Shown here one piece after another: positions 54,083 through 63,825 of a stretch of 64,000 nt of DNA. The notes beneath the pieces are model-generated. The model did no database searches. It saw only the letters and a program-made list of their open reading frames with translations, and was not told the DNA's origin. A program made the translations under genes and the position numbers. The DNA is taken from contig NZ_MUNR01000012.1 in the NCBI RefSeq assembly GCF_002001045.1, forward strand, positions 434,001 through 498,000. Direction: 5' to 3'. The first letter of the stretch is position 1, and each line of letters opens with the position of its first letter. The stretch is from Rhodanobacter sp. C01. GTDB lineage: Bacteria; Pseudomonadota; Gammaproteobacteria; Xanthomonadales; Rhodanobacteraceae.

Positions 54083-54160
<78 letters not shown>

Positions 54161-54189
54161 GTAAGACCTTGAATTTCAAGGATAAAACA

Positions 54190-54213
54190 GCCGCCTAGCA
54201 GGGCGGCTTTTTT
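54190..54213 (+). terminator. Intrinsic terminator after tRNA-Pro (element side)
   Basis: GCCGCC and GGCGGC arms are followed by six T residues. It replaces the original host terminator, which remains past attR. Confidence 0.85.
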
Positions 54214-54225
54214 GTTGGCCGTTCG

Positions 54226-54248
54226 CCGTAACCGTCTCATAACCGGAA
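54226..54248 (+). repeat. 23-bp end repeat, left copy (candidate integrase arm site)
   Basis: CCGTAACCGTCTCATAACCG followed by GAA matches the right-end copy at 63662-63684 at 21 of 23 positions in the same orientation. Each copy holds two TAACCG units. Position near both att sites suggests integrase arm binding. Confidence 0.55.
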
Positions 54249-54420
54249 TTCACGGAAATCGAAGGCCATTGAGCAGCGCGTTTCGCCACGCAGGCTAGAG
54301 GGTTTCGACAGCGAGGGGCAACGGTAGGTACTGCCCTACCCGCGCGACCCGCTCCTGCACACGTCTGCACACCTTACCCGCAGGCACGTACACTCGTCTC
54401 GCCAACAGCGGGGGAGTGAC

Positions 54421-54909
54421 ATGGACTTGACTCAGGGAGTAACGCTCGGGATTGCCGTGGTCGGCGCCACACTCGGTGTCTTCAACGCTTACTGGATGAT
54501 CCGCAAGGATGTGGTGCGTTTGCGGGTGCTCAGTCGCGTCATGATCATTTCAACCGGGCAAGTGACCGTTTGCATCGAAGTTATAAACACCGGGTACATA
54601 CCTGTGACGATCACAGAAGTCGGTTACACCTCCGGTCGCTTCGCGAAGCAGAAGACGGTGATTACGAATGACTTCCTACGACGAACGCAGTTGCCCTACC
54701 GCCTTGAACCAAGGGCAGGCATGACCGTGACGGTCGAGCCGAGCGCACTAGACAACCCAGTGATGCATCACCTTGCGTACTGCCACGCGAAAACTGCGTG
54801 CGGCATCCTCGTCCGTAGGCGACTCAGCAGGAGCTGGCGGGGTGACGCAGCAAAGCGGCTTCGCGCCGCTGGACAGGCAATTCAGCAAATGTCCACCGAG
54901 CGCGGTTAG
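54421..54909 (+). CDS. Single-helix membrane protein, cargo gene, unknown function
   Basis: No family recognised. The 162-residue protein has one N-terminal membrane helix (VTLGIAVVGATLGVFNAYWMI), then a beta-rich middle (QVTVCIEVINTGYIPVTITEVGY) that resembles an immunoglobulin-like strand pattern, and a basic tail. The ATG has GGGGGAG upstream. First gene of the left-end cargo group, reading away from the tRNA; about 150 nt separate it from the lipoprotein gene. Confidence 0.7.
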   Translation: MDLTQGVTLGIAVVGATLGVFNAYWMIRKDVVRLRVLSRVMIISTGQVTVCIEVINTGYIPVTITEVGYTSGRFAKQKTVITNDFLRRTQLPYRLEPRAGMTVTVEPSALDNPVMHHLAYCHAKTACGILVRRRLSRSWRGDAAKRLRAAGQAIQQMSTERG

Positions 54910-55059
54910 GCACTCTCCGATCAGCACGACACGCTTCCGCACACGCCTGAAGGGGCTATACGCGCAACTCGTTAGATAGGCCCTGCCGGTCGAAGTGGCG
55001 CTCATACAACAATAAGTGAATACTTAACTAGGGAGCCAGCAATGGCAGGGGGAACAATC

Positions 55060-55413
55060 ATGAAGGTTCTTGTCGGCATCGCGCTCGCGTGTGCGCTCGC
55101 CGGATGTAGCACGTACCAAGCGCACAGTAACCTGCCGACGCCTTACGCGCCGACGAACGCCAGTCAAATTCAGATTCTCTACTCGCCGCCGCAGCGCACA
55201 TACACTTCCATCGGCATCGTTTCAGCGAACCGCTACAAGCCCGGCTGGACTGACCCCACGGTCAGCGACGCGATCCCCCAGTTACAAGCTGCCGGCGCGC
55301 AGATCGGCGCTGACGCGGTGATCGTTCGCAGTGATCGAAGCAACAACGACCGGCATGTTGTTGTTGAGGGAGAAGCGATCAAGTTCACAACTGAAACAAG
55401 CGCGCGGCAATAA
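55060..55413 (+). CDS. Small lipoprotein, cargo gene
   Basis: The ATG giving MKVLVGIALACALAGCSTYQ is chosen because a lipobox (LAGC) follows directly and AGGGGGAAC lies upstream; an ATG six codons earlier is possible. About 117 residues. The part IGIVSANRYKPGWTDP, then LQAAGAQIGADAVIVRSD, resembles small lipoproteins with a GADAVI-type core, but no exact family is claimed. The next gene starts 48 nt later. Confidence 0.7.
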   Translation: MKVLVGIALACALAGCSTYQAHSNLPTPYAPTNASQIQILYSPPQRTYTSIGIVSANRYKPGWTDPTVSDAIPQLQAAGAQIGADAVIVRSDRSNNDRHVVVEGEAIKFTTETSARQ

Positions 55414-55461
55414 ATCAAGAATCTCGCTCTTGTACCTTCATCTAGAAACCAAGGAGGGAAC

Positions 55462-56490
55462 ATGACAATTAACATTGCGCTTTGTACGTATGACGGCATA
55501 GTGCTTGGCTGCGACAGCCTTTCAAGCATAACGGAGACTGCATTTTTGCCCTACCGCAATGGGAATACTTCATTTGTACTGGATAAAGAAGGAAACCCGG
55601 TAGCTGATGAGGATGGAAATCTACTACTCAAATTCAACATTAACGACACCAGACAGATGGCAACCACAGTGTTTGGCGGCGTTAGCAAGATGTTTTGTCT
55701 TTACCAAGATGAGGACACGACAGTTGCAGCTGTAACCGCGGGGTTAGCCATTGTTGGAGGCGTCACAATCGCTGAGCAAGCAAAGCGATTTCGGCGAAAA
55801 GTGAGTGCCGATAAAAGGACCTTCAACAAGGTTGAAGACGTAGCCAATGAGTTCAAGGACTTCATGTATGAGCTCTGGCATGAAGACTATAAAAAGTCTG
55901 GGATACCCGATATTCAGTATTTCAGTACAGTCCAATTCATTGTCGCTGGCTACGGGCGGGATGATGTGTATGGGAGAGTTTTTCGCATAAATTGCTCAGA
56001 CAATTCTTTGGTGGAGCAATTTACTGAAGACGACCACACCGGAGTTTGCTGGGGTGGGACTGCAGATTACGCGGAGCGTCTATTACGAGGTTCAGATGGA
56101 TTGTTGCAGTACAAAGTCAATCGAGAGCTTGTGAAGGCAATGAAGCAACAGCGCGAAAGTACAATCAACGACCTTTCCGAAGCCATAACAGCTGCAGGTG
56201 TAGTGTTGCCGAGCGGGCTAGATGTTCAGGTTCGTGAAGAACAACTTCCCACCCTTCCGTGGGATTCAGTCACTGCTGACGTTGACTATGGGAACCTGTC
56301 TACACAATACGCGATAGACTTCGTGGAGCTACTTGTCAACATTCAATCCGGCATGCAACGCTTCGCACGTGGCATTCCTGTCGTCGGTGGTCGTACGCAC
56401 ATCGGAGTACTCAAGCGCGGCGAGCGCTTTGAGATGCTGAACGAACCCAAGCTCCAGCACAAACATACGGGGTATGCAGATGAATTCTAA
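55462..56490 (+). CDS. Proteasome-type Ntn-hydrolase-like protein, cargo gene
   Basis: 342 residues. Removing Met1 would expose Thr as N-terminal nucleophile. The first strand pair TINIALCTYDGIVLGCDS puts Asp at mature position 17, matching proteasome beta subunits. Then an insert of about 40 residues leads to VSKMFCL, where Lys76 may match catalytic Lys33, and VAAVTAGLAIVGG and FIVAGYGRDDVYGRVFRI match later core strands. It is much longer than HslV. A strong AAGGAGG site precedes the ATG. Base composition is clearly lower in GC than the host. Function unknown; protease activity is inferred from fold only. Confidence 0.6.
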   Translation: MTINIALCTYDGIVLGCDSLSSITETAFLPYRNGNTSFVLDKEGNPVADEDGNLLLKFNINDTRQMATTVFGGVSKMFCLYQDEDTTVAAVTAGLAIVGGVTIAEQAKRFRRKVSADKRTFNKVEDVANEFKDFMYELWHEDYKKSGIPDIQYFSTVQFIVAGYGRDDVYGRVFRINCSDNSLVEQFTEDDHTGVCWGGTADYAERLLRGSDGLLQYKVNRELVKAMKQQRESTINDLSEAITAAGVVLPSGLDVQVREEQLPTLPWDSVTADVDYGNLSTQYAIDFVELLVNIQSGMQRFARGIPVVGGRTHIGVLKRGERFEMLNEPKLQHKHTGYADEF

Positions 56491-56689
56491 TCAGTATCTG
56501 AATTCGGGCAAAGCCACCTTTGCGGGCGGAGTTGTGCGCTCTCCTCGTGCCTCGGAGCGCAGCGGCGCGGTGGCAACTAAGGGTTCGACTACCTCTTCAC
56601 CCGTGAAGGTCAAAACCTACTCGGTCACCGTCAAAGACGGCTCGTTGAAGATCGACCAGAAGCCGCGAAAGGTTCCAGGTCAGGAGTAG
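56474..56689 (+). CDS. 71-residue basic, probably disordered protein, cargo gene
   Basis: Overlaps the end of the Ntn-hydrolase-like gene by 17 nt, so the two are probably translated together. The sequence is rich in Ser, Thr, Lys and Gly (RSPRASERSGAVATKGSTTS) with a short beta-like stretch (KVKTYSVTVKDGSLKID) and ends KPRKVPGQE. No family recognised. A second ATG two codons later is possible. It may be a partner or substrate of the upstream protein; that is inference. Confidence 0.6.
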   Translation: MQMNSNQYLNSGKATFAGGVVRSPRASERSGAVATKGSTTSSPVKVKTYSVTVKDGSLKIDQKPRKVPGQE

Positions 56690-56759
56690 ATTTCGTCCCC
56701 ACGAGTTCGATTCGACTAGGTATAGGACGCTGGAATGGCTCGACATGAGCTGTGCAAGG

Positions 56760-57323
56760 CTATCCAGCCTTGCTCATATTCCGCATCCACTGCCACTTTT
56801 CGGCAGGCTCAATCCGCAAAGGGTGAGGTTCTGGCTCGGCAATGACGCGCTTCTCTGCCGGCAGCAACAGCTTGTGACGTTTGAGGTAAGCGCGTTGCGT
56901 TTCGAACTCGGGCGGGTTGTCAGGATCGCCGAACCAAGCTGGGATTCCGTAGTGGTGTGCCGGCGCATAGTTCAGCACTTCGTGCAGCGGCTGGCCTTCG
57001 CCGCATAGCAGTCGGCGTAGTTCGATCAAGCGCGAAGCCATAACGGTGCGCGACCAGCGCCCCAAGTCTTCCGGCGCGAGGCGTGGCGCGTCATACCGCC
57101 ACCACATCGACGGGCGGGTGCCAGGCTTGGTCTTCATCCAATCTGCAAGGATCGTCTTGCGATGTTCTTGCCAGTACGGAAGCAACGCGTTGTAGTGCTC
57201 GCGATCCAACCATACAAAGCGGTTCGCATCGTCGGGCGGAAGCATGTCGTTGAGCATGGCCCAGCGCGTCGGGTCGATACCTTCACGGCGGGCGCGAGTG
57301 CGGAAGCGTCGATTGGTAGGCAT
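56760..57323 (-). CDS. Phage-associated protein, unknown function
   Basis: No family assigned with certainty. The 187-residue protein is Trp/Arg/Pro-rich (KPGTRPSMWWRYDAPRLAPEDL, ETQRAYLKRHKLLLPAEKR) and typical of unnamed proteins beside phage terminase genes. It starts 3 nt after the small terminase stop, so it belongs to the packaging group. No Walker or nuclease motif of a large terminase is present. Confidence 0.7.
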   Translation of the reverse strand: MPTNRRFRTRARREGIDPTRWAMLNDMLPPDDANRFVWLDREHYNALLPYWQEHRKTILADWMKTKPGTRPSMWWRYDAPRLAPEDLGRWSRTVMASRLIELRRLLCGEGQPLHEVLNYAPAHHYGIPAWFGDPDNPPEFETQRAYLKRHKLLLPAEKRVIAEPEPHPLRIEPAEKWQWMRNMSKAG

Positions 57324-57326
57324 GGT

Positions 57327-57665
57327 TCAACTTCCTGCCGGGCGACCGGGCCGATCATGGAGCGGCTCCACGTCCAGATTCAGCGCCTTCAATGCCGCCA
57401 GCATTTGCGAACGGGCATCGCGTTCGGCGGGCAAAAGTGGATGCGCCTTGCGCTGACCGAAGCGGTCTAGAACTGTCACGCCATCGCGCTTGATGGCGGA
57501 CTGCGCAAGGCGCATCCGGTCGAACGCTTCAAGCCCGGTTTGCAACAACAACAAGCCGGCGTCGTCCTCAATCGAATATTCGGACACCAGACGTTTCCAC
57601 CATGATCCCGCTTCCTTCGACAGCTCTTTCGGCGGGGTTTGCGATGCGGTTCGGGCTTTGGTCAT
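57327..57665 (-). CDS. Phage terminase small subunit, P27 family
   Basis: DNA-recognition subunit for packaging. The 112-residue protein has TPPKELSKEAGSWWKRLVSEY, LLLQTGLEAFDRMRLAQ and PLLPAERDARSQMLAALKALNLDVEPL, the P27 pattern. No large subunit is found in the element, which fits a satellite that redirects a helper's motor. The upstream 107 nt hold no gene but an AT-rich patch. Confidence 0.8.
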   Translation of the reverse strand: MTKARTASQTPPKELSKEAGSWWKRLVSEYSIEDDAGLLLLQTGLEAFDRMRLAQSAIKRDGVTVLDRFGQRKAHPLLPAERDARSQMLAALKALNLDVEPLHDRPGRPAGS

Positions 57666-57772
57666 GGATAGATTTTTTGAAAGGCAACCTTGATTACATG
57701 ATTAAAAAATGGACTGAGCGTTTTCCAGCGCAACAGCGCAGGTCATGCGCCACTCCCCCCGGTCGGTGTCGT

Positions 57773-58033
57773 TCAATGAATCCGCTGCGACGCGGGCACT
57801 TCGTTGATCGGAGCGCGAATGCGCATGCCGGATGCTGGCTGCTCGGTGTCGTCCATCACCAAGTCAGTGAGGCAAACAACCTCAAGCATCTTGACGCCAT
57901 TGACCTCGATGATGTGGACGTCCAGTGGAATGATGTCGGCATCGCTGGCGTGTTTGATCTCAGCGACCTGCGCCTTGATCTCGCTCCATGTATGGGGATA
58001 GTCGCGCTGTGCGGCGTTGAAGCTCAGGTTCAT
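57773..58033 (-). CDS. Small hypothetical protein of the capsid gene group
   Basis: 86 residues, not recognised. It starts MNLSFNAAQRDYPHTWSEIK and contains a beta-rich middle (VHIIEVNGVKMLEVVCLTD). It overlaps the preceding 52-residue gene as ATGA, indicating one transcript with the capsid gene. Confidence 0.6.
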   Translation of the reverse strand: MNLSFNAAQRDYPHTWSEIKAQVAEIKHASDADIIPLDVHIIEVNGVKMLEVVCLTDLVMDDTEQPASGMRIRAPINEVPASQRIH

Positions 58034-58188
58034 GCGTGTTCTCCTTTTTCCAGTTCCTTGATGCGCTGGTTGAGTTCCTTGACATGCCGCAGCACGAGCG
58101 CGATGAACTGCGTAAGGTCGCCGCGTGTTGCTGGCGTGTTGCGTTCAGCGTTGGTCATCTCGGCATACATCTTGTCGAAGCGGTTCAT
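58030..58188 (-). CDS. 52-residue hypothetical protein
   Basis: A short frame beginning MNRFDKMYAEMTNAERNTPA and ending in a charged helix LNQRIKELEKGEHA. Its ATG shares one base with the capsid gene stop (TGATG) and its own stop overlaps the next gene (ATGA), which supports it as real. A short coiled coil is likely; function unknown. Confidence 0.6.
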   Translation of the reverse strand: MNRFDKMYAEMTNAERNTPATRGDLTQFIALVLRHVKELNQRIKELEKGEHA

Positions 58189-59186
58189 CAGTAGTCAGCT
58201 CCAGTGATGACCGCGACACCGCCGATGCGCTGGTTCTCCCAGTTCGCACGGATGACCGCCTTCAGCGCCACGGTGTTCGTCTGGAACATCGACACCATGG
58301 TGGCTGGCGAACCCGGTTCATCACTCATCGCGAGAGAAGTTTGGTCGGACTGACTCAGCTCGATGGCGTCCATCGCAACCGCGATGCCGCTCGAGTCCAC
58401 GAGAGCAATTTGACCGCCTGCCGTATCGTGCGGGGAATAGCGGCTCACCAGCAGGGGGATACCAAGGATTGAGCCACCTCTCGGCGATGCGTCTTGAAAA
58501 AGGAAGCTGCCGTTGGCACCACGCACCATTGCCAGTCCGGTAGCCGTGTCGGGATCTGTAATCAAGTAACTGGTGGACATGTCGCCTGCAAAAGCAGATA
58601 CCAACGCTTTCAAGTCGGCAGCCGCGTCGCTGGTCGCGGCAATTGTCGGTGCGCCGTGCGTGACCGATGCAGGGATGGTGTCTGAACCGGCATTGGCTGG
58701 ATCGAGAAGTGCTTGATCAATGGCACCTGCGCAGCCTGTCTCCAAATCGAATTGGAGGCCAGCTTCCACAGCGGGCGATTCTGCACGCAATGCTTCATCT
58801 GTGACCGCGATCAGCGCCACGACCTTTTTAGCAGTGAGAGTGCTGCCAGCAAGTACAGCTTTGAGCATCGGCGCTGGGGAGGACTCTGCGACCCACCAGC
58901 CGATAACACCATTCGTGCGTGCCAACATCCGCTTGTTGAAGGCGGCTGGGCGAGTGACCAAGCCGCCTAGCACGGATTTTTCGCGCACTGCGTTGAGATA
59001 CTCCACCATTTCCGGGCCGAGGTCACCGGTCGTGATTGCTGCGACAGCGGCTTTGGAGATAGCGAAGCCGTCAGGCCATCGTGCCGCCGCAAAAGTGTTC
59101 GTGAGTTCAGGCGAACCACTGCCGCCCCACTGAGCAAGTTTCAACCTGATATAGGAGCGGCCTTTTTGAACAGCGGAAATGGACAT
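58188..59186 (-). CDS. HK97-type phage major capsid protein
   Basis: 332 residues. The segments ISKAAVAAITTGDLGPEMVEYL, GGLVTRPAAFNKRML, WWVAESSPAP, LIAVTDEALRAESPAVE and ILGIPLLVSRYSP follow the HK97-fold capsid pattern. The ATG giving MSISAVQKGRSYIRLK is chosen over a start 24 codons upstream. No long delta/scaffold domain or neighbouring protease gene is present. Small-capsid use of its own shell would fit a capsid-encoding satellite. Confidence 0.8.
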   Translation of the reverse strand: MSISAVQKGRSYIRLKLAQWGGSGSPELTNTFAAARWPDGFAISKAAVAAITTGDLGPEMVEYLNAVREKSVLGGLVTRPAAFNKRMLARTNGVIGWWVAESSPAPMLKAVLAGSTLTAKKVVALIAVTDEALRAESPAVEAGLQFDLETGCAGAIDQALLDPANAGSDTIPASVTHGAPTIAATSDAAADLKALVSAFAGDMSTSYLITDPDTATGLAMVRGANGSFLFQDASPRGGSILGIPLLVSRYSPHDTAGGQIALVDSSGIAVAMDAIELSQSDQTSLAMSDEPGSPATMVSMFQTNTVALKAVIRANWENQRIGGVAVITGADY

Positions 59187-59286
59187 GACGTTTTTGCCTC
59201 GATGAATGGATCGGATACACGTCGAGATTGCGCTAGCGTCTTGATCAAACATGATCAACGGTGATCAAACATGTACATCCGGTGTT

Positions 59287-59604
59287 CTACGACTCGCACT
59301 CATCACTGTTTCGACGTAACCACCACTCCGCCAAATCGCGCATGTTGTAACTGAAGTGTCCGCGGCCTGCCGGCGCATAGATGATGCGTGGGCCTTTGTC
59401 CGCTTTGCGCAGGTTGGCGATCCAGAGCTTGCGTTGACCCAAGAGCTCAGCCGCGACCGATTCGGATACACGACCGCTGGGCATCATGTGACCGCGCTGT
59501 GCGCAACGCTGCTCCCACTCTGCGACTAGTTCAGCAACCCGCTGTTCTAGGTCGGCGGAATCGCGGAACTTGTATTGGCAATTCGGACATATGTGAATGG
59601 TCAT
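59287..59604 (-). CDS. Cys-motif/HTH DNA-binding-like regulator
   Basis: 105 residues. It starts MTIHICPNCQYKFRD with a single CxxC pair, and the C-terminal half (VSESVAAELLGQRKLWIANL, RGHFSYNMRDLAEWWLRR) looks like a MerR/excisionase-type winged helix. AGAGGAAAG precedes the ATG. The frame stays open far upstream through the iteron region, but that part is not protein-like. It lies between the candidate origin and the capsid gene and may control late genes. Confidence 0.6.
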   Translation of the reverse strand: MTIHICPNCQYKFRDSADLEQRVAELVAEWEQRCAQRGHMMPSGRVSESVAAELLGQRKLWIANLRKADKGPRIIYAPAGRGHFSYNMRDLAEWWLRRNSDECES

Positions 59605-59752
59605 GCTTTCCTCTGTGTCTACGCTGTGCCGGGCTTTCTCCGCAGCCTCGGCTACCGGCGAGCCGCGCGACGTGCGCGTGCACATGCCTACGTGGTTTCG
59701 TGCCTGCCGGGGCGAGTCGGTCGCAACGTTGCTGGGGCGATGTATCAAATCG

Positions 59753-60028
59753 TGGGTGCCGACGATACCGACGATAAAGACATACTCCTTACCCCTTATC
59801 TCTCTATCCCTCCTTTTCTTTGTTTTCTTCCGGACAAATAGAAAGTAAACGTCGGTATCGTCGGCACCCAGTAATACCAATGCTTAGAGCCGCCGGCAGT
59901 ATCGTCGGTTGATCGTCGGTTCTATCGTCGGTAGCGCCCATCGAACTACCCGCCGGCAACACCGTTGCGCTCGCCCGGCAGGCCGAAGGGGTGATGATCG
60001 TCGGCATGCCGACGATAGAACCGACGAT
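59753..60028. repeat. Iteron cluster: nine ATCGTCGG octamers, candidate replication origin
   Basis: Perfect octamers start at 59857, 59901, 59912, 59924 and 59997, and their complement CCGACGAT at 59759, 59768, 60009 and 60021; a near copy lies at 59849. They form a 21-bp inverted repeat (59753-59773 with 59850-59870), a 20-bp inverted repeat (59912-59931 with 60009-60028) and a 20-bp palindrome at 59997. A pyrimidine-rich AT patch lies inside the first pair. It is next to the helicase gene, as in satellite origins. The stretch 59605-60049 holds no convincing gene. Confidence 0.75.
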
Positions 60029-60049
60029 AGGTGCCCCTCACGGCAGGCA

Positions 60050-61579
60050 TCAAATATCAACCAAAGCCTTCCCAGCATCATTGAGGTCTATCCCACACCA
60101 GCGCCGTTTTTTCCCGTCCCAACCACGTTGAACACTTTCACCGTACATGCCCGACAGTTCAGCGCTCAACTTGTTGGAGGTGATGACGGGCATTTTCCGT
60201 TGCTGCCGCCACACGTTGTACTTCTCGGTGAAGTAGGTCGGGGCAACCTTCTTATCAGGCTCCAGCACGCAATAGTCCGCCACAAACTCAGCAAGAGGCG
60301 TCCCTGTCTCATACCAATCCTGGCGCGCCTGCTTGGAGCTTTCCGGCTCATCGAATCGACCCCAACCACGCAGTCGCTGATAGCCTTCCATCGCCCACAG
60401 CGCAATGCCCGGTAGCTCATCAATCAGCTTGTCGAGCAGATCATGTTCTTCATGGTCAAAGAACGACCTGCTCAACTTGAGGATCAGGAAACGCGAACTG
60501 ACAGCATCCGAGCTATCCGCAAGCTGCGGCATCTCGTTCGACAGCATCATGACCCGGACGCCAAGCTGATCGGTAATCGGTTCCTTTCCCTTACGATCTA
60601 CCATGACCGGATCATTGCCCACAATGCGAAGTAAGTTCTCAACAACTGCCATCGTGTCTTTCTTACTCGACAGGCGCGCATCGCTCACAAGGAGCAACCG
60701 CTTGTTGATAGAGTCTTGAAGCCCGAACCGCTCGCCAATGGCATTGATCGCCGGGCTGGACACCATCGACTTGCCAAGCAGCCTACGCAGCACTTCGCCG
60801 ATGGTGCCCTTGCCGGCGCGCTTCGGGCCGATCAGCATCAACGCCTTCTGCGCCCAACGGTCACCGGACAACACATAGCCGAACCACTCTTGCAGCAGGG
60901 CTATTTCGTCGGCCTTGTCGCCGAACAGCTCCTCAAGGAAAGCGATCCACCGCTTCGGTTCCGGTGCATTCTTGTCGTAACGCCAGTCCGCACCGTTCGG
61001 CACAAACGTGTGCAAGGTCGGCTTCGACTTCCCTGTCAGCATGTCCACGATTTCGCCAAGACAAACCATCTGTCCCTGCGCATCGACTTCGCGCCAGCTT
61101 CCGTCCGGTTCACGCACACAAGGCACCGTCAGGTCTGACGGGATCGTTTCGTTGTTCTCGATCTGGTAATAGATGGTGTTGACGTTGTGCTGCGACGTCA
61201 CAAAGTCGTGGACTTCGCCTTCTGCATCGACCTGCCGGCAAAGCAGCAGTCGCTTGTACAAGATGCTTTCGACATCTTTTTTGGACACCAGCACCCAGCG
61301 CTTGCGCTTGTACTGGTACCAGTCTTCCCGGTAATAGACCAGCAGCCGAACCCCATCCATCGTGAAGTAGCGAACCAGCACGATGGTTGCCGCGCCAAAC
61401 GGATTGGTACGCAGCGACGGCAGAACAGGGTTGCGTGCATCCGCATCCTCGATCTGCTCTTGTTCGGCTCGGAGCAGTCGACGCGCTTCCTCGCGTACTG
61501 ATTCACCATCGGTTGGCTGCGATGGTGTTTGCGCAACGCGCTCATACGACGCACGCTTGCCCTTAACCTTGGGACTCAT
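60050..61579 (-). CDS. D5/P4-type SF3 replicative helicase
   Basis: 509 residues. A D5-like N-terminal part precedes an SF3 helicase core with Walker A IGPKRAGKGTIGEVL, LLLVSDARLSS as the B-like motif and VMMLSNEMPQLAD as motif C. A separate primase centre (Toprim/AEP) is not evident at the N-terminus. The ATG overlaps the AlpA stop (ATGA). The iterons just downstream are likely its origin. This matches the primase/replicase genes of P4- and PICI-type satellites. Confidence 0.85.
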   Translation of the reverse strand: MSPKVKGKRASYERVAQTPSQPTDGESVREEARRLLRAEQEQIEDADARNPVLPSLRTNPFGAATIVLVRYFTMDGVRLLVYYREDWYQYKRKRWVLVSKKDVESILYKRLLLCRQVDAEGEVHDFVTSQHNVNTIYYQIENNETIPSDLTVPCVREPDGSWREVDAQGQMVCLGEIVDMLTGKSKPTLHTFVPNGADWRYDKNAPEPKRWIAFLEELFGDKADEIALLQEWFGYVLSGDRWAQKALMLIGPKRAGKGTIGEVLRRLLGKSMVSSPAINAIGERFGLQDSINKRLLLVSDARLSSKKDTMAVVENLLRIVGNDPVMVDRKGKEPITDQLGVRVMMLSNEMPQLADSSDAVSSRFLILKLSRSFFDHEEHDLLDKLIDELPGIALWAMEGYQRLRGWGRFDEPESSKQARQDWYETGTPLAEFVADYCVLEPDKKVAPTYFTEKYNVWRQQRKMPVITSNKLSAELSGMYGESVQRGWDGKKRRWCGIDLNDAGKALVDI

Positions 61580-61803
61580 GCTTCGACCTGCGGACGCGCC
61601 TGATACTTCACCGGGCGCCCTGCATCGCTCTCATGCTCAAGGAAGTCCACCCATGCTTCCACGTCCGCCGGGCGGGCGAACCGACGCCGACCAACAATGA
61701 AGGTTTTGAGGTCACCGGCGTTGATCGCAGCACGGATCAGGGGCATTGCCTCGCCCGTCGCCTCTGCGATGTCCGCAAGAGACATTTTCAGCTTCGTCAC
61801 CAT
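61576..61803 (-). CDS. AlpA/excisionase-type regulator
   Basis: 75 residues with a MerR-like helix-turn-helix: MSLADIAEATGEAMPLIRAA, then GDLKTFIVGRRRFARPADVEAWVDFL. AlpA-like proteins start excision or expression in Gram-negative satellites. Its Shine-Dalgarno GAGGTAAG lies inside a long hairpin, so translation may be gated. The stop overlaps the helicase ATG by 4 nt. Confidence 0.7.
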   Translation of the reverse strand: MVTKLKMSLADIAEATGEAMPLIRAAINAGDLKTFIVGRRRFARPADVEAWVDFLEHESDAGRPVKYQARPQVEA

Positions 61804-61805
61804 CT

Positions 61806-61854
61806 CGCTTACCTCTACTTAAAGCCGCGACGAATCGCGGCGGTGAGGTAAGCG
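61806..61854 (-). promoter_or_regulatory. Hairpin covering the AlpA ribosome-binding site
   Basis: CGCTTACCTC (61806-61815) and GAGGTAAGCG (61845-61854) pair over 10 bp and enclose a second stem CCGCGA/TCGCGG. On the minus strand the AlpA Shine-Dalgarno GAGGTAAG is in the distal arm, a few bases before the ATG. A third inverted repeat (TCTCGCG/CGCGAGA, 61867-61889) lies just upstream. It may be an RNA switch or a DNA operator. Confidence 0.6.
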
Positions 61855-61904
61855 TCCCGGCGGCTTTCTCGCGAACTTTGTACGCGAGACAGGAGCGCGT
61901 CTAT

Positions 61905-62411
61905 CTACTTGGCTGGCTTGCGAATTTTCTTCGCATTTAGGGCTTTACTTGTTTTTCGAGTTCGCCCCAAGCGTTCCAACTCTTGCTGAAGCACACGATA
62001 GAGCGTTGCGCGACTAGCAAGCTTCTTCTTGACCATCTCGTCAATGGCCTCGCTCGCATCGCGGTCGCCGGTGGCGATCAAGGTCTTGAACTTCTTGGTG
62101 AGCGAATCCTTCCTGTCAGCAGCTTCATTCGCTTTCGTTGCCGCCGACTTCGCGCCACCACGCGCAGCCCCAACCGGGCGAACACGCGAAGCAATCGCAG
62201 CCTCTGCAACTTCGCGAAGGTGCTGCCGCGCAGACTCTTTTACTATCGGGTCATTGCCCGTCGCCAGGGCTGCCCACTGCTGGATTAGCTGGATCAGCTC
62301 ATCAACCGGGGACACCACCGCATCCTGACCGTCACTCATGCGATAGACACGCGTGATCTGCTGCGCGATGGGCGTGCGCGCTACCTTCTTTGATTTCCGC
62401 GCAGCGCTCAT
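61905..62411 (-). CDS. Basic, probably DNA-binding protein, unknown family
   Basis: 168 residues, very basic at both ends (MSAARKSKKVARTP; SKALNAKKIRKPAK). A helical middle and a short helix-turn-helix-like stretch (KKLASRATLYRVLQQELERL) suggest DNA binding. The ATG overlaps the integrase stop (ATGA), so it is made with the integrase and could be an accessory or regulatory factor. Function not assigned. Confidence 0.65.
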   Translation of the reverse strand: MSAARKSKKVARTPIAQQITRVYRMSDGQDAVVSPVDELIQLIQQWAALATGNDPIVKESARQHLREVAEAAIASRVRPVGAARGGAKSAATKANEAADRKDSLTKKFKTLIATGDRDASEAIDEMVKKKLASRATLYRVLQQELERLGRTRKTSKALNAKKIRKPAK

Positions 62412-63625
62412 TTCCCGCCCCCAAGCATCGCCACCGCAGCCGCCAACTTCTGAGGCGCAAGGTGTGCATAGCGCAGCGTCATCGCAATGTCCGCATGGCC
62501 CAGCAATTCGCGTACCGTATTCAAGTCCACACCCGCCATCACCAGCTTGCTCGCGAAGTCGTGGCGCAGATCGTGAAAGCGAAAATCGGGAAGCTTCGCT
62601 GCTGTCACCAGCCCGTCCCAAGACTTGTTGATATTGCCCAAGCGCTCGCCGCTCGCCCCCGGAAACACCAACCCTTCGCCGCTGCCCTGCTTCTTCCAGC
62701 GCTTCAAAACTGCCAGCGCCTCTGTGTTCAAAGGAATGTGCCGCGCTTTCCTCGACTTCGCGTTGCCAACAGTGACCGTGAGCATCTTGCCGGGGATGTT
62801 CACACTGCCCCAGTCCAGGCTGAACAACTCACCCCGGCGGAGCCCAGTGTTCAACGCGAGCAGGACTAAGGGCATTAGATGATCGGTATAGCTGGTCGCC
62901 GGCCACATCGGACGTCCGTCGCCACCCCGTTCGGCAGACCAAGCATTGCCGCTCATTCGACGCTTGCGGCGCTGTTCCTCGCGCTTTTGTAGCGCTTCAC
63001 GTAGCCGCTTTTCCTCGGCTTTGGTCAAGTAGCGAACTCGACTGTTGTCGGCACCTTTAGCCCGCTTAACAGTGCGCAGCGGATGTTCCGCAACCATCCC
63101 CCAATCAACCGCACGGGACAGTGCTCCACGTATACGGTCTAAGTCCCGGTTCACCGTCGCTGGCATCCTCCCTAACTTCAGCCGCGCTGCCTTGATATCT
63201 TCAACATCGCGCGCACTGACGCCGTTCAAGGGCTTCTGGTACAGCTCGCCGAACGTGGCAGCAATCGCGTCAACCGTCGCCTGCCCCGCCTTTTGATGAG
63301 CCACAGCCCATGGCCCATAGTGGTCGCTGATGAACTCCCCGAAAGTCGTCGGCTTCGCTCCGGGCGGCTTGCGCGCTTCGATCACGGCCAGCGGTGCGCC
63401 GTGCAAGTCCGTCTCTACAAGTAGTCCCTTTGCCTTCACGCGAGCCGATTCGACGGTGACGCCGGGCCACTTGCCGAGCGACTTGTCGGCGTCTGCCTTC
63501 CATCGTACGTACCAAGCCTTCACCCCTGAGGGCTGAACACGGAGGTAGAGTTGCGGAACGACGGCGTCCCACACCCGGTAGGGTTTAGCCTCCGGTTTGG
63601 CCGCCTCAACGATGAGCGGCGACAT
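62408..63625 (-). CDS. Tyrosine-type site-specific integrase
   Basis: Catalyses element integration and excision at tRNA-Pro. Catalytic residues are visible: Arg in NTGLRRGELF, Lys in NAKSRKARHIPL, HxxR in FHDLRHDFASKLV, His in LLGHADIAMT and Tyr in LRYAHL. The N-terminal arm-binding and SAM-like domains precede them. The start is uncertain: ATG giving MSPLIVEAAKPE is used; a GTG 9 codons and an ATG 27 codons upstream are open, but the latter overlaps the 23-bp end repeat. It reads away from attR. Confidence 0.92.
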   Translation of the reverse strand: MSPLIVEAAKPEAKPYRVWDAVVPQLYLRVQPSGVKAWYVRWKADADKSLGKWPGVTVESARVKAKGLLVETDLHGAPLAVIEARKPPGAKPTTFGEFISDHYGPWAVAHQKAGQATVDAIAATFGELYQKPLNGVSARDVEDIKAARLKLGRMPATVNRDLDRIRGALSRAVDWGMVAEHPLRTVKRAKGADNSRVRYLTKAEEKRLREALQKREEQRRKRRMSGNAWSAERGGDGRPMWPATSYTDHLMPLVLLALNTGLRRGELFSLDWGSVNIPGKMLTVTVGNAKSRKARHIPLNTEALAVLKRWKKQGSGEGLVFPGASGERLGNINKSWDGLVTAAKLPDFRFHDLRHDFASKLVMAGVDLNTVRELLGHADIAMTLRYAHLAPQKLAAAVAMLGGGK

Positions 63626-63661
63626 CTTCTTGAGTAACCGTCTGGCGAGCACTGAAAACCT

Positions 63662-63684
63662 CCGTAACCGACTCGTAACCGGAA
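63662..63684 (+). repeat. 23-bp end repeat, right copy (candidate integrase arm site)
   Basis: CCGTAACCGACTCGTAACCG followed by GAA; two substitutions from the left copy at 54226. It lies just upstream of the integrase gene. The stretch from here to attR has only short palindromes such as CTTAC-ATC-GTAAG. Confidence 0.55.
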
Positions 63685-63777
63685 ACCGAAGTATATCGCG
63701 ACGCATCGCGAAGTTTCGCCACTATACTAATCAATCACTTACATCGTAAGTCACTGATCGTAAAGGTCAGAAAATCG

Positions 63778-63825
63778 CGTTCGGGACGTAGAAGTCGCAG
63801 GTTCGAATCCTGTCACCCCGACCAA
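63778..63825 (+). other. attR: displaced 3' end of host tRNA-Pro
   Basis: 47 of 48 bases match attL. The one difference (A at 63814) restores a paired acceptor stem, so this copy is probably the original host sequence. The 5' half of the tRNA is missing here, so it is not a functional gene. Confidence 0.95.

Follow-up and report, generated by a model that had tools for sequence, protein, structure and literature searches.

The window, by which we mean the whole 64,000-nucleotide stretch of Rhodanobacter sp. C01 DNA that was analysed, carries an integrated element of 9,665 bp, measured between copies of a 48-nt att repeat. The repeats, the core genes and the first two cargo genes of the element are as follows:

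54083..54159, plus strand: tRNA-Pro (cgg), the integration target, located with ARAGORN
54113..54160, plus strand: left copy of the 48-nt att repeat, formed by the tRNA-Pro 3' half and matching 63778-63825 at 47/48 positions
54421..54909, plus strand: cargo ORF of 162 aa from the ORF list, with a possible N-terminal membrane segment (by eye)
55042..55413, plus strand: cargo ORF of 123 aa, probably a lipoprotein, from a LAGC box identified by eye
56760..57323, minus strand: satellite core ORF of 187 aa, the core gene bordering the cargo slot, kept in L152, L153, L071 and L151
57327..57665, minus strand: terminase small subunit, P27 type (TIGR01558, E 8e-10, under the curated cut-off; phrog_83, E 9e-10)
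57773..58033, minus strand: satellite core ORF of 86 aa, kept in four related elements
58188..59258, minus strand: major capsid protein, longest frame (PF05065, E 7e-14)
60050..61579, minus strand: D5/DUF5906-type primase-helicase, by family matches
61576..61803, minus strand: AlpA/excisionase-like HTH protein (PF12728, E 0.002, under the cut-off; phrog_66, E 0.009)
62408..63706, minus strand: tyrosine integrase (PF00589, E 2e-31)
63778..63825, plus strand: right copy of the att repeat, by match to the left copy

The att repeats, the integrase, the primase, the capsid and small-terminase genes, together with a core common to relatives, identify the element as a phage satellite. Comparison of 15 ORFs with PHROGs returned no portal, large terminase or tail genes, apart from tail and spanin matches at chance level. 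The capsid, 86-aa, small-terminase and 187-aa genes recur in the same order in four relatives, two of them chromosomal (L152, L153) and two on viral contigs (L071, L151), and the primase is found in all but L071. All core genes lie on the minus strand, and the cargo forms the plus-strand end adjoining the tRNA, where the 162-aa ORF, the lipoprotein-like ORF (with weak spanin-like matches only), an ORF of 342 aa and one of 69 aa follow each other; the 162-aa product has family matches at chance level only. Beyond the 187-aa gene, L152 has genes of 190 and 316 aa and L071 a single gene of 392 aa, while L151 ends there, and none of the four cargo ORFs of the window finds a match at E 1e-3 in L152, L153, L071 or L151. 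The cargo slot is therefore variable, and the placement of the 342-aa gene at the cargo end of a satellite, as proposed in the initial annotation, holds, as does the low G+C content ascribed to the cargo (53%, against 58% in the satellite core and 64% in the chromosome to the left). The satellite family as a whole (window 56760-63706; L152, L153, L071, L151) combines capsid and small-terminase genes with this variable slot beside the att site, and in the window copy no portal, large terminase or tail gene was recognised. In the sections of PMC9122126 cited here, the antiviral hotspots of P2 and P4 prophages and satellites have a variable cargo slot of the same kind, whereas the satellite family differs. 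A promoter scan of 54160-56800 returned one promoter-like site, where 1.4 are expected.

The 342-aa ORF of the cargo and its landmarks are listed here:

55451..55457, plus strand: ribosome-binding site AAGGAGG, read from the sequence
55462..56490, plus strand: proteasome-like Ntn hydrolase of 342 aa (ORF, homologues, predicted model)
55465..55467, plus strand: codon of Thr2, the putative Thr1 nucleophile after Met removal (23/23 aligned family members)
55513..55515, plus strand: codon of Asp18, proteasome Asp17 (25/25)
55531..55677, plus strand: first insertion, residues ~24-72, between Asp18 and Lys76 (alignment and model)
55687..55689, plus strand: codon of Lys76, proteasome Lys33 (25/25)
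55741..55743, plus strand: codon of Gly94, presumed oxyanion Gly47 by its position (25/25)

Neither Pfam and NCBIfam nor PHROG and PADLOC gave a meaningful E-value for this protein. The ORF is not a chance frame, since full-length relatives in the main alignment share 46-56% identity; three more members stand at 32-39%. Thr2, Asp18, Lys76 and Gly94 are kept in all 23 aligned members, some of which are close pairs, and in two divergent relatives, in agreement with the Thr1/Asp17 pattern noted initially. Thr follows the start codon directly in every copy whose start is covered, the start itself being ATG, GTG or TTG, and a loosely defined ribosome-site pattern precedes the gene in 20 of 23 loci. 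Methionine aminopeptidase removes a Met that precedes Thr. Judged by these conserved residues, the enzyme is likely of the Thr-nucleophile type. In the phage LPPA33 copy (L003:16731-17753) the annotated start lies 162 bp inside the gene, and homology begins upstream at a TTG.

The evidence for the fold is structural, as a profile search of PDB sequences gave chance matches only. An AlphaFold2 model built from a 19-sequence alignment (mean pLDDT 75.5, pTM 0.68) was compared with the PDB by Foldseek, which matched proteasome beta and Anbu chains at probability 1.00 and E down to 1e-6, and the ORF at 55462-56490 is thus predicted to have the proteasome-type Ntn fold assigned to it at the outset. 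There were 450 PDB matches at E <= 0.001, of which the best 50 were all proteasome or Anbu chains; among the matches listed, TM-scores were modest at 0.31-0.44 (query length) and 0.43-0.66 (target length), with 8-16% identity. The top match in a library of viral models was a siphovirus 'Proteasome beta type-2 subunit'. We are highly confident that the enzyme has the proteasome-type fold and catalytic residues. The insert recognised initially is borne out at about residues 24-72, between Asp18 and Lys76, and is accompanied by a second, mainly helical insertion at about residues 213-280. Predicted pLDDT in the first insertion falls below 50 at residues 21-33 and 63-73 and is higher between them; the second comprises a long helix (213-244) plus an extra segment to residue 280 and is shorter in L022, L023 and L039, with helices numbered by eye.

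Some divergent proteins belong beside this family. Two relatives (L007:1243-2043 and L052:1501-2301), 68% identical to each other, keep Thr2 and lack the first insertion; hhalign with alignment A4 relates them strongly to the family (probability 98.6) and relates L053 and L054 to it weakly (38). Each of the former two has its own ORF of 63-68 aa just downstream, without an R-S-G motif, and L007 lies near an ImmA/IrrE-type gene (PF06114). L054:1286-2769 encodes a larger proteasome-like protein of 437 aa, whose stop is overlapped by a 57-aa ORF, and such small overlapping genes may be frequent in the group. We presume the larger proteins of L053 and L054 to be PMI-4-like, the name being a guess.

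Fuchs, Alva and Lupas described 22 families of proteasome homologues in 2021, some of them in phages (PMC8665760). In the sections of that survey cited here, PMI-5 (Proteasome homolog with Multiple Insertions 5; representative WP_179179973.1) has 19 members at nr90, occurs in Proteobacteria only, and is neither marked as occurring in phages nor credited with a gene context suggestive of function. PMI-5 and the present family have in common a proteasome-like fold, Thr1/Asp17/Lys33, confinement to Proteobacteria and few members, so far as the survey's excerpted description goes. PMI-5 also has an S3/S4 insertion predicted to be unstructured and an H3/H4 insertion, to which the two insertions of the enzyme may correspond. 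Unlike PMI-5 as surveyed there, the enzyme family has an overlapping partner and a mobile setting. By taxonomy, size and putative architecture, as described in those sections, it most resembles PMI-5. A known proteasome homologue of tailed phages has about 140 residues, whereas the enzyme here has 342 with two insertions. The setting was initially taken to be one for which no description could be named, which proved too strong: the survey, in the part cited here, has phage proteasome homologues (PPH, AAH and others; PMC8665760), and the copy in phage LESphi2 is already annotated 'proteasome subunit beta', so that a phage-borne proteasome homologue is not in itself new. A search of one open-access library gave no function for this enzyme family.

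Anbu and HslV share the fold and the catalytic residues with the enzyme, but the enzyme differs from them in its insertions, its mobile setting and its small partner. Membership of HslV itself was rejected, in keeping with the distinction drawn initially: against HslV of the same genome, hhalign gave E 0.14 and a probability of 0.4, and no HslU-like match exists among the element's scanned ORFs. The fold, with Anbu among the best PDB matches, would also suit a self-compartmentalising protease of the HslV/Anbu type that degrades unfolded proteins, a role we consider very improbable given that no AAA+ protease partner is encoded among the same scanned ORFs, that the host has an HslV of its own with an adjacent HslU-like gene, and that the insertions fall at ring-contact sites. 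The insertions lie at sites which, in the sections of the survey cited here, are associated with control of the active site in connectase and with the prevention of double rings (PMC8665760), and so point to a selective enzyme. Rarity speaks against that role as well, with relatives in 4 of the family's 233 genomes and 5 of the order's 398, each count including one genome with a divergent relative only; in a class-wide sample the genome studied here was the sole carrier (1/369).

Overlapping the 3' end of the enzyme gene is a small ORF that was absent from the initial annotation and is added here:

56480..56689, plus strand: overlapping partner of 69 aa, 71 aa from the alternative start at 56474 (overlap, coding signal, alignment)
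56555..56572, plus strand: partner motif E-R-S-G-A-V, residues 26-31 (R-[STA]-G in 18/20 copies)

Of 36 loci, a set of 31 plus L043 and L056-L059 in which near-copies are counted, 35 have an ORF of 64-71 aa that overlaps the enzyme 3' end. The partner ATG precedes the first base of the enzyme stop codon by 8 nt in 33 of the 36 and by 5 nt in two, and the window locus has a further partner ATG at 14 nt. The lone exception is L014, where a frameshift merges the enzyme frame into that of the partner, which is itself open. This copy, from Rhodanobacter FW104-R8 (L014:10001-11209, also L005), has the frameshift near the enzyme's end, and it may be a sequencing error. For a shuffle test, 20 of the 36 loci were used, leaving out the near-copies L001, L003, L023, L026, L027, L028, L030-L032, L034-L038 and L059, and also L014. 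All 20 loci of this reduced set had the overlapping ORF, which arose in 3-19% of trials at each locus when the downstream region was dinucleotide-shuffled; these rates were not multiplied because related loci are not independent. Nucleotide changes in the partner at codon positions 1/2/3 numbered 12/2/33 (L013-L027), 14/10/46 (L015-L016) and 1/1/12 (L023-L039), and the third position led in every one of 11 pairs, strongly so between close relatives and weakly between distant ones. We therefore hold it nearly certain that enzyme and partner constitute a two-gene module. Translation of the partner is probably coupled to that of the enzyme, as its start codon overlaps the end of the enzyme gene. 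Within the literature searched, the contribution of this analysis is the overlapping partner together with the satellite slot.

Two small genes that overlap and travel on mobile elements, one of them encoding a short flexible protein that is plausible as an inhibitor, are reminiscent of a toxin-antitoxin or addiction pair, in which the enzyme harms the host, the partner blocks the enzyme and the element is thereby stabilised. The L005/L014 copy, its enzyme frameshifted and its partner frame open, is as expected were the partner harmless alone, but a single broken copy that is possibly a sequencing error is weak. The enzyme-first order with overlap gives no obvious antitoxin excess, and there was no match to any toxin-antitoxin family, so we regard such a pair as unlikely.

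Partner sequences were aligned in a set of 20 copies (A5: the loci of the shuffle test, with L014 replacing L043). Gly29 is found in 20/20 and is the sole invariant residue besides the start; it belongs to an R-[STA]-G motif in 18 of the 20, and to [ED]R[STA]G[AS] in 13, while SGK, SGF and SGY also occur. R-S-G is present twice in the most divergent members (L056, L057, L058), at a spacing of about 20 residues; in eight others, N-[SAV]-G or S-S-G stands around residues 8-10. The partners of L022, L039 and L043 are without R-[STA]-G. Towards the C-terminus, short beta-like stretches are often separated by N-G, D-G or Q-G, and a low-confidence model shows this part as a hairpin. That model is poor (pTM 0.24), and the R-S-G motif or motifs fall in a region without predicted structure. 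As the partner is probably made together with the enzyme and carries a short conserved motif in a region lacking predicted structure, it is best read as a substrate, inhibitor or regulator; that it is a substrate or other active-site ligand of the enzyme seems to us a reading with slightly less than an even chance.

One way in which such a motif might be used is known from connectase, an archaeal protein ligase (PDB 6ZVZ, named in PMC8665760) that cleaves and religates its KD|PGA site and takes a GGA N-terminus as well (PMC11745163), according to the sections of these papers cited here. Judged by those sections of the survey (PMC8665760), connectase and the enzyme share a proteasome-like fold, an N-terminal Thr and an insertion at the S3/S4 site, matched by eye, but connectase is archaeal, lacks H1/H2 and recognises KDPGA. 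A connectase-like ligase that joins the partner, whole or in part, to another protein at R|S-G-A would fit the first insertion, which lies where connectase and PMI-5/6 carry theirs, that of connectase being a specificity element in the part of the survey cited (PMC8665760). It would also fit the likeness of the partner's [ED]R[STA]G[AS] (13/20 copies) to KD|PGA and to the GGA N-terminus, as given in the sections of PMC11745163 cited. This likeness to the connectase site is suggestive only, a resemblance as short as two or three residues can arise by chance in unrelated proteins, and the SGK, SGF and SGY of other partners depart from it; we consider such a ligase improbable. We give equally little credence to a related scheme, in which the enzyme would cleave the partner at R-S-G, keep part of it as a Thr1 acyl adduct and transfer this as a tag to a phage or host protein.

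Where the relatives occur bears on the role of the module. With tblastn, the enzyme gene was located in 16 of 50,697 phage records, each of them from Pseudomonas, and a set of 72,556 plasmid records gave no match; 12 loci were found on genome contigs of Stenotrophomonas, Rhodanobacter, Luteibacter, Pseudomonas, Salinicola and Vreelandella. Viral contigs gave no match to the window protein alone, 16 loci with alignment A3 and 20 with A4, 16 being common to both. An integrase gene precedes that of the enzyme in two Pseudomonas phage types, BR233a and LPPA33, and likewise in L024, L013 and L023, and a tRNA lies at most 600 bp upstream in L018 and L022. In L025, 57 nt lie between the start of the enzyme gene and a preceding repressor-like gene, which encodes HTH and S24 domains, and in L056 a single 92-aa ORF separates it from an upstream gene with an S24 domain; such positions behind repressor-like genes would suit genes expressed in the lysogen. 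The G+C content of the module is below that of its surroundings in 23 of 23 loci. This spread of relatives is that of a moron gene. The settings are thus largely mobile and Thr2 is conserved throughout, so that neither a lost nucleophile nor a purely housekeeping setting, findings that would have spoken against the initial annotation, turned up among the homologues.

A role in phage morphogenesis, for instance as a virion-maturation protease, was considered in view of L057, where one neighbour of the enzyme gene encodes a head-tail connector (PF12236) and the other, across the gene, an internal virion protein (phrog_418), and of phage AH14a, which has a 156-aa 'proteasome subunit beta', a far shorter protein, near a terminase gene in the part of PMC4936722 cited. 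Against it stand the positions beside an integrase, repressor or att site in the window, in LESphi2-type phages and in L024, L025 and L056, the satellites L152 and L071, which have the same capsid gene and no match to the enzyme, and the copies in L014 and L017, near which no phage genes were recognised by eye (within 4.5 kb). A morphogenesis role is accordingly rather improbable in our estimate.

Among the neighbours, which were picked by eye from few loci and without a background count, a TIR protein in L021 and a DUF2971 protein in L015 (PDC-S31) are related to candidate defence proteins; other neighbours scanned alongside them gave no such match. Beside the Luteibacter copy (L017:11486-14542) lies a gene for a 1018-aa metallophosphatase-STAND protein related to the PADLOC candidate PDC-S60. 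A known anti-phage defence system was rejected as an identity for the module, no PADLOC model having matched either the enzyme or the partner.

We propose that the enzyme is a Thr peptidase or transpeptidase that acts on, or is controlled by, its partner, with phage exclusion as its likeliest use. The pair would be an accessory (moron) module of two genes, carried by temperate phages and satellites, in which the partner is the cognate ligand and expression in the lysogen protects against competing phages; we assign this reading as a whole a probability of roughly 45%. The host methionine aminopeptidase would expose Thr1 of the enzyme, which may then form the active site together with Asp17 and Lys33. 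The insertions, one of them where the active site of connectase is covered, suggest a selective enzyme and not a bulk proteasome. The partner, whose translation is probably tied to that of the enzyme by the gene overlap, would meet the active site with its R-S-G motif as a substrate or pseudosubstrate, and the enzyme would thereby be either loaded or held in check. The module might then be expressed in the lysogen and shield its carrier from rival phages, as its positions suggest. Superinfection exclusion or defence, the latter already suggested from location in the initial annotation, a part of the proposal for which we would put the odds a little below even, is favoured by the lysogen-type positions and the mobile cargo slot. 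Counting against the proposal are the L057 copy among virion genes, where a virion role is possible, a neighbour of the L020 copy that weakly resembles a tape-measure gene, the three partners without R-[STA]-G (L022, L039, L043), the missing PADLOC match and the poor partner model.

The proteasome family has many uncharacterised members in bacteria and phages, for which the 2021 survey, in the sections cited here, found no functional gene context (PMC8665760). An overlapping partner with a conserved short motif offers a hint at function, with the motif as the candidate site of a substrate or an inhibitor. Phage exclusion by the pair would add an Ntn enzyme to the defences that satellites carry, ligation would make the pair a new peptide-tagging system, and should the conjugation scheme hold true, a short genetically encoded peptide would be attached as a tag during infection.
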